The position numbers and the translations under genes are program-made. DNA of 64,000 nucleotides from Polaribacter sp. Hel1_33_78 (GTDB lineage Bacteria; Bacteroidota; Bacteroidia; Flavobacteriales; Flavobacteriaceae): assembly GCF_900106075.1 (NCBI RefSeq), contig NZ_LT629794.1, positions 1,778,001 through 1,842,000 on the forward strand. Direction: 5' to 3'. A model generated the notes under the pieces. The model did not search any database. It saw nothing but the letters and a program-made list of their open reading frames with translations, and had not been told where the DNA came from. Below are positions 18,657 through 28,907 of the stretch, one piece after another. The number at the start of each line of letters is the position of its first letter. Position 1 is the stretch's first letter.

Positions 18657-19790
18657 ATGAAAATAGGAATTGTTTGTTATCCCACCTTTGGTGGAAGTGG
18701 AGTAGTAGCTACTGAGCTAGGAATGGCTTTGGCTGACAATGGCCATGAAGTACATTTTATTACTTATAATCAGCCAGTTCGTTTAGACTTCTTATCACAT
18801 AAATTGCATTTCCATCAAGTTTTAATTGAAGAATATCCCTTATTTCAATACCAACCGTATGAGTTAGCTTTATCGAGTAAAATGGTAGAAGTTGTTGAGA
18901 AACATGAATTGGAAGTATTGCATGTACATTATGCTATTCCTCATGCTTATGCCGCTTTTATGGCCAAACAAATGTTGTTGGAAAAAGGTATTTCTATAAA
19001 AGTAGTTACGACTTTGCATGGAACGGACATTACTTTAGTTGGAAGCCATCCTACATACAAAACAGCTGTTGAATTTAGTATTAATAATTCTGATGTGGTT
19101 ACAGCAGTTTCTAACAGTTTAAAGCAAACAACAAATCATCTTTTTAAGATTAAAAAAGAAATACAAGTTGTTTATAATTTTATTGATATTGAAAAATATG
19201 ATAAAGCTGAAAATCAAGAATGTAAAAGAGATGCTTTAGCCAAACCTAATGAACGAATTTTAACACATATAAGTAACTTTAGGCCTGTAAAAAGGGTTGA
19301 AGATGTTATAAAAATATTTTATGAAGTTCAAAAAGAAATTCCTTCTAAATTATTGATGATTGGCGAAGGTCCGGATAGAGCCAAAGCAGAAATTTTAACA
19401 AAGAAACTAGGCATTACAGACAACGTTTTTTACTTAGGAAATAGCACAGAAACTGTTAAAATTTTATGTTATACAGATCTGTTTTTATTACCGTCTCAAA
19501 CAGAAAGTTTTGGTTTAGCTGCATTAGAAGCGATGGCTGCAAAAACTGCAGTTATTTCTACCAATACTGGAGGTTTACCAGAAGTTAATATTCAAGGTAA
19601 AACAGGGTTTTTAAGTGATTTGGGAGATATTAAAGATATGGCTAAAAATGCAATTTCTATTCTAAAAGAGGATGCTATTTTAGATCAATTTAAAAGGAAT
19701 GCAAAAGAACATACAAAAAAGTTTTCTTTGCAAAATATTTTACCTGTTTATGAAGAGATTTATAATTCTTGTTACAAAACTAAGGTGTAA
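18657..19790 (+). CDS. bshA: N-acetyl-alpha-D-glucosaminyl L-malate synthase (bacillithiol biosynthesis)
   Basis: A 377-residue GT-B glycosyltransferase of family GT4. It opens MKIGIVCYPTFGGSGVVATELG, the BshA-type glycine loop, and continues with HEVHFITYNQPVRLD, VLHVHYAIPHA and VTTLHGTDITLVG. The C-terminal half has the EX7E motif (Glu283 and Glu291 in ESFGLAALEAMA). It transfers GlcNAc from UDP-GlcNAc to L-malate, the first step of bacillithiol synthesis, in the cytosol. The bshB and bshC genes are not in this window. It has its own candidate promoter and terminator and so is probably monocistronic. Length and motifs are normal. Confidence 0.92.
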   Translation: MKIGIVCYPTFGGSGVVATELGMALADNGHEVHFITYNQPVRLDFLSHKLHFHQVLIEEYPLFQYQPYELALSSKMVEVVEKHELEVLHVHYAIPHAYAAFMAKQMLLEKGISIKVVTTLHGTDITLVGSHPTYKTAVEFSINNSDVVTAVSNSLKQTTNHLFKIKKEIQVVYNFIDIEKYDKAENQECKRDALAKPNERILTHISNFRPVKRVEDVIKIFYEVQKEIPSKLLMIGEGPDRAKAEILTKKLGITDNVFYLGNSTETVKILCYTDLFLLPSQTESFGLAALEAMAAKTAVISTNTGGLPEVNIQGKTGFLSDLGDIKDMAKNAISILKEDAILDQFKRNAKEHTKKFSLQNILPVYEEIYNSCYKTKV

Positions 19791-19791
19791 T

Positions 19792-19825
19792 AAAAAAGCT
19801 CAAAATTAATGTTTTGAGCTTTTTT
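19792..19825. terminator. bidirectional intrinsic terminator between bshA and the DUF937 locus
   Basis: A 14-bp perfect stem (19792-19805 and 19812-19825) around TTAATG, with A and T runs that supply a U-tract on both strands. It has the AAAGCTCAA/TTGAGCTTT type core seen again at 49201 and 49631. It serves bshA (+) and the convergent DUF937 gene (-). Confidence 0.9.
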
Positions 19826-19844: not shown

Positions 19845-20483
19845 TTATTTTCCGAAAAGACCTCCTAACAAACCACCAATTCCACCAGATTGTTTTTTAG
19901 CACCACCTAAAAACATACCCGCAACATCATCCACAACACTTCCGTCACCGTCTGCATCTAAAATTTGCTCTAAAAAATTTTATTCATTTTTACTATCATT
20001 TCCTCCTAACAAACCTCCTAAAAGTCTAGTTATATCTCCAGAACTATTAATGTTTTGTTCTTTCTTTTGCTTTCCTAAAACCCCCATTAATAAAGGTGCA
20101 GCAACTTTTAAAATGTTGGCAACAGAACCAGCATCAATACCTGCTTTCTGGCTAAGAATTTGTTAAACTCCTTGTTGTCTATTTCCTAAAACATGACTTA
20201 AAATTCCAGCTCCATCTTGTTTAATAGTTTCATCAACGCCACCGCTAAACAATCCTCCAAGATTATCTAAAACACTACCATCATGCTTTCCTGATAAAGC
20301 TCCCATTAATCCTTCAGCACCCTCTGGAGTAGCCGCATTCCTCTCCATCGCTTTCATCAAAACGGGTAAAGCCATCGTTAAAACACTACTTGTTTTATCC
20401 GAATCATTCCCTGTAGAGCCTGCAACTCCTGATATAATTGATTTTCCTAAATCACTATTTAATAAATCTAAAATTCCTGACAT
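19845..20483 (-). pseudogene. DUF937 protein gene interrupted by two in-frame TAA codons
   Basis: Read in one frame from ATG 20483, the sequence encodes a complete 212-codon DUF937-type protein: MSGILDLLNSDLGKSIISGV at the start, a central ILSQKAGIDAGSVANILK helix segment and a Gly-rich end (GGIGGLLGGLFGK) before TAA at 19845-19847. Two TAA codons fall in frame, at codon 107 (20163-20165; GNRQQGV-stop-QILSQ) and codon 168 (19980-19982; NDSKNE-stop-NFLEQ). In relatives recalled from memory these positions are Glu and Gln, so single G-to-T and C-to-T changes explain both. No frameshift is present and both downstream parts still read as family sequence. As written, only a 106-residue N-terminal product is made. 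Function of DUF937 proteins is unknown. Confidence 0.85.
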
Positions 20484-20605
20484 TTTATGTTTTTAATAAT
20501 TAATTTAAATGTTTTCTAAAAATATGACACAATATACAAATAAAGTCACCCTTAATTTTAAATATTTTTTTACCTTTCAACATCGAAATAATTTTAAACT
20601 AATAG

Positions 20606-21934
20606 ATGAGAAAACTAGCATTACATTGGAAAATTTTAATAGGAATGGTTATTGGAATCCTTTTTGGGTTAGCCATGACAAGTGTTGATGGAGGAGCAAC
20701 TTTTGTTTCTAATTGGATAAATCCTTTTGGAAATATTTTTGTAAAATTATTGAAATTGATTGCTGTGCCTTTGATTATTGCTTCTTTAGTAAAAGGAATT
20801 TCCGATTTAAAAGATATTTCTAAATTTAAAAATATAGGGCTAAAAACAATTGGGATTTATATTGGCACAACGGTTATCGCTATTACAATTGGATTGTTAT
20901 TAGTTAATATTGTAAAACCTGGAGAAGGAATCTCTGAAGAAACTATTACCAAACTAACGGATACTTATGCAAATAGTGGAGGAGTTCAATCTAAGATTGC
21001 TGAAGCTTCTAGACAAAAAGGGAGTGGTCCATTGCAATTTATGGTCGATATGGTTCCAGATAATGCAATGAAAGCAATGAGTAATAATAAATCAATGTTA
21101 CAAGTAATTTTCTTTACTATTTTCCTTGGAATATCAATGTTATTAATTGGTGAAAAAAGATCTAAGCCTTTAAAGGACTTCTTTGATTCTTTAAATGAGG
21201 TAGTTCTTAAAATGGTCGATTTAATTATGCTTTTTGCGCCTTATGCTGTTTTTGCATTATTGGCAAATGTGGTAGTTTCTTCGAATGATCCAGATTTATT
21301 ATTGGCACTATTAAAATATGCATTTACGGTTGTTGGTGGTTTATTGATAATGGTGGTTTTCTATATGATTTTGGTGAGTGTTTTTACAAAAAAGAATCCA
21401 TTTTGGTTCTTAAAACAATTAAGTCCGGCACAATTATTAGCTTTTTCTACGAGTTCTAGTGCAGCAACTTTACCTGTAACTATGGAAAGAGTTGAGGAAC
21501 ATATAGGTGTAGACAAAGAAGTTTCTAGTTTTGTATTGCCTGTGGGCGCTACCATAAATATGGATGGAACATCTCTATACCAAGCAGTTGCAGCTGTTTT
21601 TATTGCTCAAGCTTTAGGTTTCGATTTAACTTTTGCAGATCAATTAACTATTATTTTAACCGCTCTATTAGCATCTATAGGCTCTGCTGCAGTGCCCGGT
21701 GCTGGGATGGTAATGCTAGTTATAGTTTTGGAATCTGTAGGTTTTCCTGCTGATAAATTAGCCATTGGTTTAGCCTTAATATTTGCTGTAGATAGGCCAT
21801 TAGACATGTGCAGAACTGTCATAAATGTAACAGGAGACGCAACAGTAGCATCACTTGTGGCTAAATCTGTTGGTAAATTACATGATAATCCACAGCCAAA
21901 AGAATGGGACGATCATTATGATGAAGTAAAATAA
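20606..21934 (+). CDS. dicarboxylate/amino acid:cation symporter (DAACS family)
   Basis: A 442-residue inner-membrane transporter of the GltP/DctA type with about eight hydrophobic segments and two re-entrant loops. Signature motifs are present: the Ser-rich hairpin AFSTSSSAATLPVT, NMDGT (318-322), the second hairpin GSAAVPGAG, and DRPLDMCRTVINVTGD (396-411) with the Asp, Arg, Asn and Asp of the substrate/cation site. It imports glutamate/aspartate or C4-dicarboxylates with Na+ or H+. An Arg in DMCRT fits acidic substrates; the exact substrate is not settled. The next gene, a sulfurtransferase, starts 21 bases downstream. Confidence 0.92.
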   Translation: MRKLALHWKILIGMVIGILFGLAMTSVDGGATFVSNWINPFGNIFVKLLKLIAVPLIIASLVKGISDLKDISKFKNIGLKTIGIYIGTTVIAITIGLLLVNIVKPGEGISEETITKLTDTYANSGGVQSKIAEASRQKGSGPLQFMVDMVPDNAMKAMSNNKSMLQVIFFTIFLGISMLLIGEKRSKPLKDFFDSLNEVVLKMVDLIMLFAPYAVFALLANVVVSSNDPDLLLALLKYAFTVVGGLLIMVVFYMILVSVFTKKNPFWFLKQLSPAQLLAFSTSSSAATLPVTMERVEEHIGVDKEVSSFVLPVGATINMDGTSLYQAVAAVFIAQALGFDLTFADQLTIILTALLASIGSAAVPGAGMVMLVIVLESVGFPADKLAIGLALIFAVDRPLDMCRTVINVTGDATVASLVAKSVGKLHDNPQPKEWDDHYDEVK

Positions 21935-24622: not shown

Positions 24623-25315
24623 ATGATTAGAATAGAAAAGCTACATAAATCTTACCCCATAGGAAAAGAAAAATTACATGTATTAAAAGGTATTGACTTA
24701 CATATCAAAGAAGGTGAATTCGTATCTATTATGGGATCTTCTGGTTCTGGTAAATCTACATTATTAAATATTGTTGGTTTATTAGATGGACATGATGAAG
24801 GAAATTATTTCCTTAACGGGCAGTTGATTAGGGATTTAAATGAAAAAAAAGCCGCTATTCTTAGAAATAAATTTTTAGGATTTGTTTTTCAATCATTTAA
24901 CTTAATATCATACAAAACAGCTTTAGAAAATGTTGCATTGCCTTTATATTATAAAGGAATGGCCAGAAAAGAACGTTTGACAGTAGCTATGGATTATTTA
25001 GATAAGGTAGGTTTAAAAGATTGGGCTAATCATTTACCCAACGAACTTTCTGGTGGTCAAAAGCAACGAGTTGCAATTGCAAGAGCTTTAGTTACGAAGC
25101 CAAAAGTTGTTTTAGCAGATGAACCAACTGGAGCATTAGATTCTACAACTACAGATTCTGTGATGGATTTATTGAAAGATATTAATGGTGAAGGAATGAC
25201 TGTTTTTGTAATTACACATGAAGAAGAAGTGGCAGAGCAAACAAAAAGAATTGTTCGCTTAAAGGATGGTATTATTATTAGTGATGAATTAACTAAAGTA
25301 GCTAAAGCCGTCTAA
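24623..25315 (+). CDS. MacB/LolD-type ABC transporter ATP-binding protein
   Basis: A 230-residue ATPase with intact motifs: Walker A GSSGSGKST (38-46), Q-loop FVFQSFNLI, signature LSGGQKQRVAIARAL, Walker B VVLADEPTGALD and H-loop VFVITHEEE. The class is MacB/LolD/FtsE, whose partner permeases have large periplasmic domains. It heads a four-gene operon (ATPase, two permeases, membrane-fusion protein) with gaps of 3, 1 and 30 bases. The complex probably moves a substrate from the periplasm across the outer membrane with a TolC protein encoded elsewhere. Substrate unknown; macrolides, peptides or lipoproteins are possibilities from the family. Confidence 0.92.
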   Translation: MIRIEKLHKSYPIGKEKLHVLKGIDLHIKEGEFVSIMGSSGSGKSTLLNIVGLLDGHDEGNYFLNGQLIRDLNEKKAAILRNKFLGFVFQSFNLISYKTALENVALPLYYKGMARKERLTVAMDYLDKVGLKDWANHLPNELSGGQKQRVAIARALVTKPKVVLADEPTGALDSTTTDSVMDLLKDINGEGMTVFVITHEEEVAEQTKRIVRLKDGIIISDELTKVAKAV

Positions 25316-25318
25316 CAT

Positions 25319-26548
25319 ATGTTTGATTTAGATCGTTGGAGAGAAATTTTTCAGAGTATTAGTAAAAACAAGTTACGTTCTTTACTGTCTGGCTTTACAG
25401 TAACTTTTGCAATCTTATTATTTACATTATTATTTGGTATTGGCAATGGTCTTCAAAATACGTTTAAAAAAGAATTTGCTGGTGATTCAATGAACTCCAT
25501 TTACATTTGGTCTAATTATACTACAATAGCATACAAAGGAAATCAAATAGGCAAAAGAGTTCAATTTAAAAATGACGATTTTAAGTTTTTAAAAGAAAAC
25601 TTTGAAAGCAAAATTCAAACAATTAGTCCAAGAATTCAAAGAGGTGTTAATGTTGTTTACAAAAATGAAAAAGACAACTACACAATGAGAGGCGTTTATC
25701 CAGAATATCAAGTTTTGGAGTCAGTAGAAATGAATGAAGGTAGATTTTTAAATTATAGAGATATTAATGAAAGATCGAAAGTAATAGTAATTGGTAAAAT
25801 GGTCGAAAAAGATTTATTTGGTCAATTAAGCGCCTTCGGCAAAGATTTAAAAATTGGAGGTATTATTTATAAAATTATTGGAGTCTTCTCTGATTCTGGA
25901 GGAGATAGTGATGAGAGATACATTTATACACCATTTACAACTATGCAAAGATTATATGGTAATAATAATTATGTTGATGATTTTGGTATTACCTACAATC
26001 CGAGTTTAAGTATAAATGAAGCTATAGCCTTTGGTAATAAAATCAAACGCGAGTTAAAGAAAAAACATAACGTTTCTCCTGATGATCAAAGAGGAATAAG
26101 AATAAACAATTATGCTTCTAGTAACAAAGAAGTTTCAGGAATGATGGTTGGATTAGGAATTCTAATTTTTATTATTGGATTTGGAACTTTAATAGCAGGT
26201 GTAGTTGGTATTAGTAATATAATGGTTTACATCGTAAAAGAACGAACAAAAGAACTAGGTATAAGAAAAGCAGTTGGTGCAACACCGAAAGCAATCATTG
26301 CAATGATCATGCAAGAAGCGATTTTTATTACTGCACTCTCAGGATATTTGGGCTTAATTTTAGGTGTTGGGATTTTAGAATTAGCAGGTCCTAGTTTAGA
26401 GTCATTTTTTATTCTAAATCCAGGAGTTTCAAGGCCAGTTGTAATAGGTGCAACTATTACTTTAATAATAGCAGGTATGATTGCAGGTTATTTACCAGCA
26501 AAAAGAGCAGCAAGAATAAAACCAGTAGTAGCATTAAGCGCAGATTAA
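25319..26548 (+). CDS. MacB-like ABC transporter permease 1
   Basis: A 409-residue permease with the MacB/FtsX layout: one N-terminal membrane helix (about 20-45), a periplasmic MacB_PCD domain (about 50-270), then three C-terminal helices (about 277-305, 325-350, 370-395). It has the coupling motif ERTKELGIRKAVGATP between helices 2 and 3 and a conserved NKLRSLLSGFTVTFAILLFTLLFGIG start. It should pair with the next gene product as a heterodimer around the ATPase. The start ATG is 3 bases after the ATPase stop. Operon gene 2 of 4. Confidence 0.92.
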   Translation: MFDLDRWREIFQSISKNKLRSLLSGFTVTFAILLFTLLFGIGNGLQNTFKKEFAGDSMNSIYIWSNYTTIAYKGNQIGKRVQFKNDDFKFLKENFESKIQTISPRIQRGVNVVYKNEKDNYTMRGVYPEYQVLESVEMNEGRFLNYRDINERSKVIVIGKMVEKDLFGQLSAFGKDLKIGGIIYKIIGVFSDSGGDSDERYIYTPFTTMQRLYGNNNYVDDFGITYNPSLSINEAIAFGNKIKRELKKKHNVSPDDQRGIRINNYASSNKEVSGMMVGLGILIFIIGFGTLIAGVVGISNIMVYIVKERTKELGIRKAVGATPKAIIAMIMQEAIFITALSGYLGLILGVGILELAGPSLESFFILNPGVSRPVVIGATITLIIAGMIAGYLPAKRAARIKPVVALSAD

Positions 26549-26549
26549 T

Positions 26550-27767
26550 ATGAAATTTTTATTCGAAAAAGACACTTGGCAAGAAATTTACGGAAGCATT
26601 CGTAAAAATAAAACCAGAACAGCAATTACCATTTTTGGTGCCTTTTGGGGTATTTTACTTTTGGTTGGTTTATTAGGTGCAGCAAAAGGAATTGAAAATA
26701 GCTTTAATAGCATGTTTGGAGACTTTGCTACTAATAGTGTCTTTATTAGTGGCAGTAGAACTTCTATGCCTTTTAAAGGATTTCAAGAAGGTAGACAAAT
26801 AAAATTAACAACTAGAGATGTTGATTTAATTAGAAGTGAAATTAAAGGAATTCAGTTTGTAGTTCCAAGAAACGCAACTGGTGGTCAAGTTACTAATGGG
26901 TTTAAAACTGGTAATTTTACAGTTTTTGGTGATTTTCCCTTATTGGATAAAGTTCAGAAGAAAAAACTTACCGATGGTCGATTTTTAAATCAAAAAGATA
27001 TTAATGAAAACAGAAAAGTCTGTGTGATTTCTGATGGAATTTATAAAGAATTATTTGATAAAGATGAAGAGGCAGTTGGTACTTATTTAAAAGTCAGTAA
27101 TATTTCATATCAAGTTGTTGGCGTATATAAATCAGGACGATTTGAAGGTAAAAATAATTTACACATTCCATTTAGCACATTTAAATTGGTTTATAACCAA
27201 GGAGATAAATTTCAATGGATGGTGGTTACTGGTAAACAAGAATTTGATATTGTTCAAGTAGAAGCAGATGTAAAACTACTTTTAAAAAATATTCATAATA
27301 TACACCCTAAAGATAATAGAGCTTTTAGGGGATTTAATCTTGGTAAAGAAATATCAAAAGTTACAGGTTTTTTAACAGGAATGCAATTTTTAACATGGTT
27401 TGTAGGTATCGCTACTTTAATTGCTGGTGTTTTTGCAATTGGTAATATTCTACTAATTACTGTTAAGGAAAGAACAAAAGAAATAGGTATAAGAAGAGCC
27501 TTAGGAGCAACACCAGGTATAGTAAGACAACAGATTATTTTAGAATCTCTGTTCTTAACCTTATTAGCGGGTTCTTTAGGTATAATTGCAGGAGGCTTAA
27601 TATTGATGTTAATTGATTCTCAAGATTGGCTCACAAATCCAACAGTAAACATCCCTATAATATTAATTGCTTATAGTGTATTAGTCTTTTTAGGCACACT
27701 CATAGGTTTTATCCCTGCATATATGGCAACGATTGTGAAACCAATTGACGCACTAAGAGAAGAATAA
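26550..27767 (+). CDS. MacB-like ABC transporter permease 2
   Basis: A 405-residue paralogue of the preceding permease with the same four-helix plus periplasmic-domain layout: first helix about 22-48, MacB_PCD about 50-270, three C-terminal helices. It has the ERTKEIGIRRALGATP coupling motif. N-terminal KNKTRTAITIFGAFWGILLLVGLLGAAKG mirrors its partner. Two different permease genes in one operon imply a heterodimeric transporter rather than the fused MacB homodimer of E. coli. The start is 1 base after the previous stop. Confidence 0.92.
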   Translation: MKFLFEKDTWQEIYGSIRKNKTRTAITIFGAFWGILLLVGLLGAAKGIENSFNSMFGDFATNSVFISGSRTSMPFKGFQEGRQIKLTTRDVDLIRSEIKGIQFVVPRNATGGQVTNGFKTGNFTVFGDFPLLDKVQKKKLTDGRFLNQKDINENRKVCVISDGIYKELFDKDEEAVGTYLKVSNISYQVVGVYKSGRFEGKNNLHIPFSTFKLVYNQGDKFQWMVVTGKQEFDIVQVEADVKLLLKNIHNIHPKDNRAFRGFNLGKEISKVTGFLTGMQFLTWFVGIATLIAGVFAIGNILLITVKERTKEIGIRRALGATPGIVRQQIILESLFLTLLAGSLGIIAGGLILMLIDSQDWLTNPTVNIPIILIAYSVLVFLGTLIGFIPAYMATIVKPIDALREE

Positions 27768-27797
27768 CAACCCAATAATAATAAACAGTAAATAAAC

Positions 27798-28907
27798 ATG
27801 AAAAAAATATTAATTTTTGGAAGCATAGCAGTCGCATTAATACTTGTATTAATATGGTTTGGTAAAAAAAATAGCGCCTCTCCAATAACTTATGAAACTG
27901 AAAAAGCCTTTAAAACTACTATTATAAAAAAATCTGTGGCTACTGGTAAAGTAACTCCGCTAGAAGAAATTGAAATAAAACCTCAAATTACGGGAATTAT
28001 TGATAAAATATTATTGACAGAAGGTTCAAAAGTAAAAAAAGGAGATTTAATTGCAACTGTAAGAGTAGTGCCTAATGAGCAATCTTTAATTAGTGCTAAA
28101 GGTAGAGTTAACAATATTAAAATCCGTGTAAATAATGCTAAAATTCAGTATAATAGAAATAAGAACCTTTTTGACAAAGGGGTTATTTCCAGACAAGAAT
28201 TTGAACAGATTGAACTTAATTACAATCAATCTAAGCAAGATTTAAAAAATGCTGAGAATGATTACATGATTATTAAAAGAGGATCAGCAAGTTCTGGAAG
28301 TGCCGCCAATACAAGTATAATTGCACAAATGTCTGGTACTATTTTGGAAATACCAGTTAAAGAAGGAGATCAAGTAATACAATCTAACAATTTTAATGCG
28401 GGTACCACTATAGCTTCAATTGCTGATATGAATAAGATGATATTTGAAGGTAAAGTAGATGAATCTGAGGTTGGTAAATTAATAAATGGAACAGCTATTG
28501 AAATTTCTTTAGGAGCAATTGAGGGTAAAAAATTTCCAGCAAACTTAAATTTTATTGCTCCAAAAGGAACAGAAGAAGCTGGTGCTGTTCAATTTAAAAT
28601 TAAAGCAGATGTTGCTTTAGATGAAAATTATTTTATTAGAGCAGGTTACAGTGCAAATGCAGAAATAGTTTTAGAGAAAAAAGATAATGTAATGTCTATC
28701 AAAGAATCATTGCTTCAATTTGATAGAAAAACAGAAAAACCTTTTGTAGAGATTAAAAATGCAGAAGGCAAATTTGACAAGAAATTTATAGAATTAGGAA
28801 CTTCTGATGGCGTTAATGTTGAAATTATAAAAGGTTTAACCATGGAAGATGAAATAAAGGTATGGAACAAGAAAACTGAAAAAGATGATGAAGATCAATT
28901 TAATTAA
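27798..28907 (+). CDS. MacA-like periplasmic adaptor (membrane fusion protein)
   Basis: A 369-residue adaptor with a single N-terminal anchor (MKKILIFGSIAVALILVLIW). The lipoyl/biotinyl half-motifs flank a coiled-coil hairpin (about 90-160; AKGRVNNIKIRVNNAKIQYNRNKNLFDKG and RQEFEQIELNYNQSKQDLKNAENDY). A beta-barrel (about 210-290) and a membrane-proximal domain follow. It links the MacB-like permeases to a TolC channel. The coiled coil is short, as in MacA. Last gene of the operon; a terminator hairpin follows 24 bases after the stop. No tolC gene is in the operon. Confidence 0.9.
   Translation: MKKILIFGSIAVALILVLIWFGKKNSASPITYETEKAFKTTIIKKSVATGKVTPLEEIEIKPQITGIIDKILLTEGSKVKKGDLIATVRVVPNEQSLISAKGRVNNIKIRVNNAKIQYNRNKNLFDKGVISRQEFEQIELNYNQSKQDLKNAENDYMIIKRGSASSGSAANTSIIAQMSGTILEIPVKEGDQVIQSNNFNAGTTIASIADMNKMIFEGKVDESEVGKLINGTAIEISLGAIEGKKFPANLNFIAPKGTEEAGAVQFKIKADVALDENYFIRAGYSANAEIVLEKKDNVMSIKESLLQFDRKTEKPFVEIKNAEGKFDKKFIELGTSDGVNVEIIKGLTMEDEIKVWNKKTEKDDEDQFN

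Follow-up and report, generated by a model that had tools for sequence, protein, structure and literature searches.

In the window, the 64,000-nucleotide stretch of Polaribacter DNA analysed here, an accessory DUF937 (PF06078) gene of a Polaribacter species has in all likelihood very recently become a null allele (pseudogene). The DUF937 frame runs over 213 codons on the minus strand (19845-20483), from an ATG at 20483 to a natural TAA at 19847-19845 that follows 212 codons, and translation revealed two in-frame TAA codons within it, at codon 107 (20165-20163) and at codon 168 (19982-19980). The uninterrupted frame of about 212 codons that is usual in relatives is absent from the window copy. 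The features of the locus and its flanks are given below in order of position; the names of the two neighbouring genes are putative.

18657..19790, plus strand: convergent neighbour, intact, which we take to be a bshA-like glycosyltransferase gene (ORF list, comparison with relatives)
19791..19825, no strand assigned: inverted repeat with a T run, terminator-like, between the convergent neighbours (sequence read directly)
19845..20483, minus strand: DUF937 (PF06078) gene remnant, 212 codons and the natural TAA, with two interruptions (translation, profile match)
19980..19982, minus strand: premature TAA at codon 168, Gln in 39 of the 39 intact relatives compared (translation, alignment)
20163..20165, minus strand: premature TAA at codon 107, within the predicted helix 85-114 of the intact relative P0121 (translation, alignment, model)
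20163..20483, minus strand: remaining ORF of 106 aa and stop, beginning at the original ATG (ORF list; an identical 106-aa protein represents the public cluster P0001)
20526..20549, minus strand: upstream block, largely invariant and intact in the window (alignment columns of the window and eight relatives)
20606..21934, plus strand: divergent neighbour, intact, presumably a dicarboxylate symporter-like gene (ORF list, comparison with relatives)

A sequence-only reading of this DNA had described a single 212-codon family frame broken solely by TAA at 20163-20165 and 19980-19982, and translation confirmed this description. Its further claim that the gene carries no frameshifts was borne out by an alignment with 39 intact Polaribacter genes, in which no frameshift was found in the window frame and the length differences were all in frame and of a type found among the intact genes as well. 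These 39 genes are loci fetched with the best matches first, a subset of the 105 open copies in the genus, and they are the basis of the comparisons of conservation, dN/dS and truncation presented here. Column 107 of the alignment is occupied by Glu in 34 intact genes and by Gln in the other 5, and column 168 by Gln in all 39, so both stops fall on ordinary sense positions. When read across the first stop, the window frame covered the full 135-position PF06078 model with a score of 159.3 bits. Taken separately, the first piece (106 aa, 114.1 bits) and the second piece (60 aa, 35.6 bits) both exceeded the gathering cut-off of 25.4 bits, and the third piece (44 aa, after codon 168) gave no Pfam match at E ≤0.1. 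The window locus is the only PF06078 match in this genome, a single contig of 3,227,823 bases with an estimated completeness of 99.99% that named relatives assign to Polaribacter. Redundancy of the window copy with a second DUF937 gene or with a YidB (PF20159) gene was rejected, since neither was found in the genome.

The closest intact counterpart was a 212-aa protein (P0121), the representative of a cluster at 90% identity with 20 members and 27 contigs, which differs from the window copy solely at residues 9, 19, 71, 96 and 153 and at the two stops. The window residues at positions 9, 19 and 96 occur in 32, 39 and 10 of the 39 intact relatives, respectively, so the changes counted on the window side were those at residues 71 and 153 together with both stops. 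The median dN/dS of the window copy against the 39 intact genes was 0.152, and the median among the intact genes themselves was 0.165 (the 737 of 741 pairs whose dS lay in the range 0.3 to 1.8). Among columns conserved at 95% or above, 3 of 110 were changed in the window copy, all of them conservatively (0 to 4 changes in intact genes); at the 90% level of conservation the changes were 6 of 126 (0 to 8 in intact genes). The near-identical intact protein, the intact-like dN/dS and the retention of conserved columns suggest that the gene died very recently or that the allele is still segregating, a dating that rests on proteins. Two marks of a recent pseudogene were found, namely disabling mutations in comparison with intact orthologues at the same place and little or no relaxed evolution.

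The sequence-only reading had also considered two stops without other decay to be uncommon. If single non-synonymous changes are placed at random in intact copies, about 6% of them are nonsense, and the window side has accumulated 2 nonsense and 2 missense changes since its nearest intact protein, P0121, with a probability of about 0.02 for at least 2 of 4. The excess is therefore mildly unusual, but it is not significant alone, because the case was picked for looking odd. Selection for loss of the DUF937 gene is possible. As in young bacterial pseudogenes with nonsense mutations, the stops of the window copy arise from point mutations, a near-identical intact protein is in circulation and loss is repeated in relatives; unlike them, the window copy has two nonsense codons while it is still free of indels and of radical changes at conserved columns.

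Quantification of PF06078 matches across the genus revealed a match in 108 of 166 genomes and none in the remaining 58; when the analysis was confined to the 128 genomes with a completeness of 90% or more and a contamination of 5% or less, 29 had no match. The window frame is like the other Polaribacter members of the family in that it matches the whole model and lies next to the bshA-like gene, an arrangement shared with at least 31 relatives, but it is the only one of the 108 matches with a stop inside the matched part. Of the other 107, two have short frames (110 codons in G017 and 181 in G076), and in the remaining 105 the frame stays open over 214 codons or more. Inspection by eye indicated that the gene of G017 (P. 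filamentus) has undergone a deletion of about 110 bp, located between short A-rich stretches that resemble each other, and contains a later stop, and that the copy in G076 carries 1-bp indels. In G064, again by eye, most of the 5′ half is gone, a frameshift is present, and the original frame is interrupted by about five stops, including one at codon 107. In a further relative, G061 (a draft, 75% complete), the two neighbours are separated by 365 bp without N where the DUF937 gene would be expected, and no credible DUF937 match was found in that interval (best tblastn hit at chance level, E 0.11). Both G064 and G061 belong to the 58 genomes that gave no match. With a support of 100 in each case, the window groups with G061 in a tree of four neighbour genes from 12 genomes and in a tree of bshA from 34. 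Altogether, the gene is dispensable in the genus: most of the species examined keep it open, yet it has been deleted or broken repeatedly. The option of a freshly dead gene, one of those left by the sequence-only reading, is well supported by this recurrent loss, by the near-identical intact P0121 and by the presence of P0001 on short contigs, described below.

The codon-107 stop present in both G064 and the window is probably a parallel mutation. This reading is preferred because of the position of G064 in the four-gene tree of 12 genomes, where it groups with G068 (support 71) and G098 (support 79), and because the bases around its stop are, by eye, closer to those of G098 than to those of the window. 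An ancestral stop common to G064 and the window was rejected on these same observations, the tree separating the two. With about five stops, G064 would share at least one of the window's two with a chance of about 0.2, so that no mutation hot spot is needed. A hot spot near codon 107, suggested by the break of G017 at that point, was also rejected, since the mechanism in G017 is a different one (the deletion of about 110 bp).

A DNA query running from the bshA-like gene through DUF937 gave a near end-to-end match in at least 31 relatives, and the inverted repeat at 19791-19825 was found in 8 of 9 aligned rows, the ninth (G076) stopping short of it. The upstream block at 20526-20549 may be a promoter or an operator. 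It is largely invariant across nine genomes, one of which has lost most of the 5′ half of DUF937. The symporter-like neighbour (20606-21934) falls into two classes among 31 relatives: its identity to the window is 90-94% in one and 68-72% in the other, and G047 stands at 78%. These classes give the flank upstream of DUF937 a mosaic appearance. Further along the window, the proteins of an ABC transporter-like operon (24623-28907) are 83-91% identical to those of G064, and its two permease-like genes are 53-62% identical to those of G021, G117, G017 and G068, the others having them in the fetched stretches; this pattern may be read as a sign of exchange between lineages. An Rfam scan of the window gave nothing at gathering scores.

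If one or both stops were errors of sequencing or assembly in an intact gene, a frame free of other decay and a nearly identical intact protein would be expected as well, as observed here. Nevertheless, this explanation is very improbable. The exact 106-residue truncated protein is the representative of the public cluster P0001 (2 members, 3 contigs, the longest of 4,827 bases). All three are too short for the 3.2 Mb chromosome, and therefore the first stop has most probably been assembled elsewhere too; the independence of P0001 from the window strain is what we infer from this shortness, and the contig numbers are counts for the cluster. An error of the window assembly, which the sequence-only reading had entertained, is consequently unlikely for stop 1. 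Stop 2 (codon 168) was seen in the window assembly only, and no protein ending at it was found among the four close ones read (P0001, P0002, P0003 and P0011, 97-100% identical, within the best 120 of 173 matches). Two further points speak against an error. A single-contig genome with two substitution errors to TAA in the same gene would be odd, and the 41 of 55 window ORFs for which the relatives' stretches contain a homolog included no further broken gene; for the other 14 those stretches contain none. Forty of the 41 matched a homolog full-length, a number that includes the DUF937 ORF since it was matched to the equally short broken copy of G017, and the remaining one differed in the called start only. 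In the reverse comparison, in which ORFs of the relatives of at least 90 aa were compared with the window, the flags beyond DUF937 were two matches running off the window edge.

There is likewise very little chance that the 106-residue fragment is useful as a protein and that the C-terminal half is discarded junk. The fragment does remain open, with a conserved upstream block, it keeps its conserved columns (2 changes in 61), and other truncations near residue 107 stay open as well (P0039, P0046, P0056, P0062 and P0067). These five proteins end at residue 107 with tails nearly as in G017, one of them being the protein of G017 itself, and the P0046 cluster comprises 22 contigs. Their shared ending, in frames that are still open, apparently derives from one ancestral deletion. 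However, substitutions in the truncated relatives fall on conserved and on variable columns at much the same rate: the ratio of conserved to variable substitutions among the five was 0.60-1.70 (10 pairs), close to 1, as under neutrality. For intact pairs the median of this ratio was 0, the 95th percentile 0.11 and the maximum 0.25, values lowered by construction, as the conserved columns were defined on the intact set; the truncated set played no part in the definition. For the only pair with DNA, G017 and G021, dN/dS over the first 103 codons was 0.41; over this half, intact pairs have a median of 0.135 and a 95th percentile of 0.227. The sequence-only reading had allowed for relatives ending naturally near residue 106; such truncated relatives do exist, but they are unconstrained and look dead too.

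The structural model of P0121 also argues against a useful fragment. The model, with a mean pLDDT of 75, is nearly all helical and places codon 107 within helix 85-114. Missing from the fragment are the end of the Pfam domain and the predicted helix 118-142, the latter in a well-predicted region. Loss of the C-terminal half thus seems to end selection on the remaining part, and, given that the truncated relatives evolve without constraint, the 106-residue product of the window copy is probably useless. None of the PDB matches in a fold search with the P0121 model was credible (the best had E 1.1, and none reached 0.001), and a sequence profile against PDB gave only 7 weak matches (E 0.47-0.56). 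In the parts of the literature consulted, no function for DUF937 was found, and the family appears there as table entries; a literature search on Polaribacter and pseudogene gave none on the present topic among the titles listed.

Pseudo-pseudogenes, as Feng et al. reportedly described them in 2022, are stop-containing bacterial genes that still yield full-length protein. The window copy is like them in having an in-frame stop within an otherwise well-conserved frame; unlike them, it gives no sign of a full-length product. Readthrough of both TAA codons at a useful rate to give full-length DUF937 protein, as the sequence-only reading had proposed among its options, found no support and is the least credible of the explanations considered: the codons after the stops do look constrained, but recency accounts for this, a near-identical intact protein (P0121) being in existence. 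The three RF-1 family proteins are unbroken (open frames of 359, 366 and 134 aa), and no UUA anticodon was found among 33 tRNAs (an incomplete list from 150 of 269 candidates scored, with some expected tRNAs missing, Ala and Ile among them). TAA ends 46 of the 54 other non-overlapping window ORFs of at least 80 aa (47 of 55 when the 106-aa ORF is included). With TAA as the usual terminator, intact release factors and no UUA tRNA seen among the 33, stop-codon recoding at the locus is unlikely. Moreover, two TAA readthroughs in series would yield very little product. Passages of one report describe translation past an annotated premature TAA in a Campylobacter pseudogene, in a strain whose own sequence differed at that codon (PMC11955535). 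The window case is very probably ordinary gene decay and not a new decoding trick.

As a recent null allele, the locus would have arisen through two point mutations, in either order: one produced the stop at codon 107, within the helix that precedes the domain's last core helix, and the other the stop at codon 168. RNA is probably still made, because the conserved upstream block is unchanged, and its translation would give a 106-residue fragment without the end of the domain and the tail. Within the repeated loss of the gene in the genus, the window would represent one more event, caught before indels and missense decay accumulated. Alone, the window pseudogene matters little and is a matter of gene annotation. 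Together, the open, freshly broken, long-broken and missing DUF937 copies at a known locus in one genus constitute a natural comparison for dispensability, which is mildly useful.
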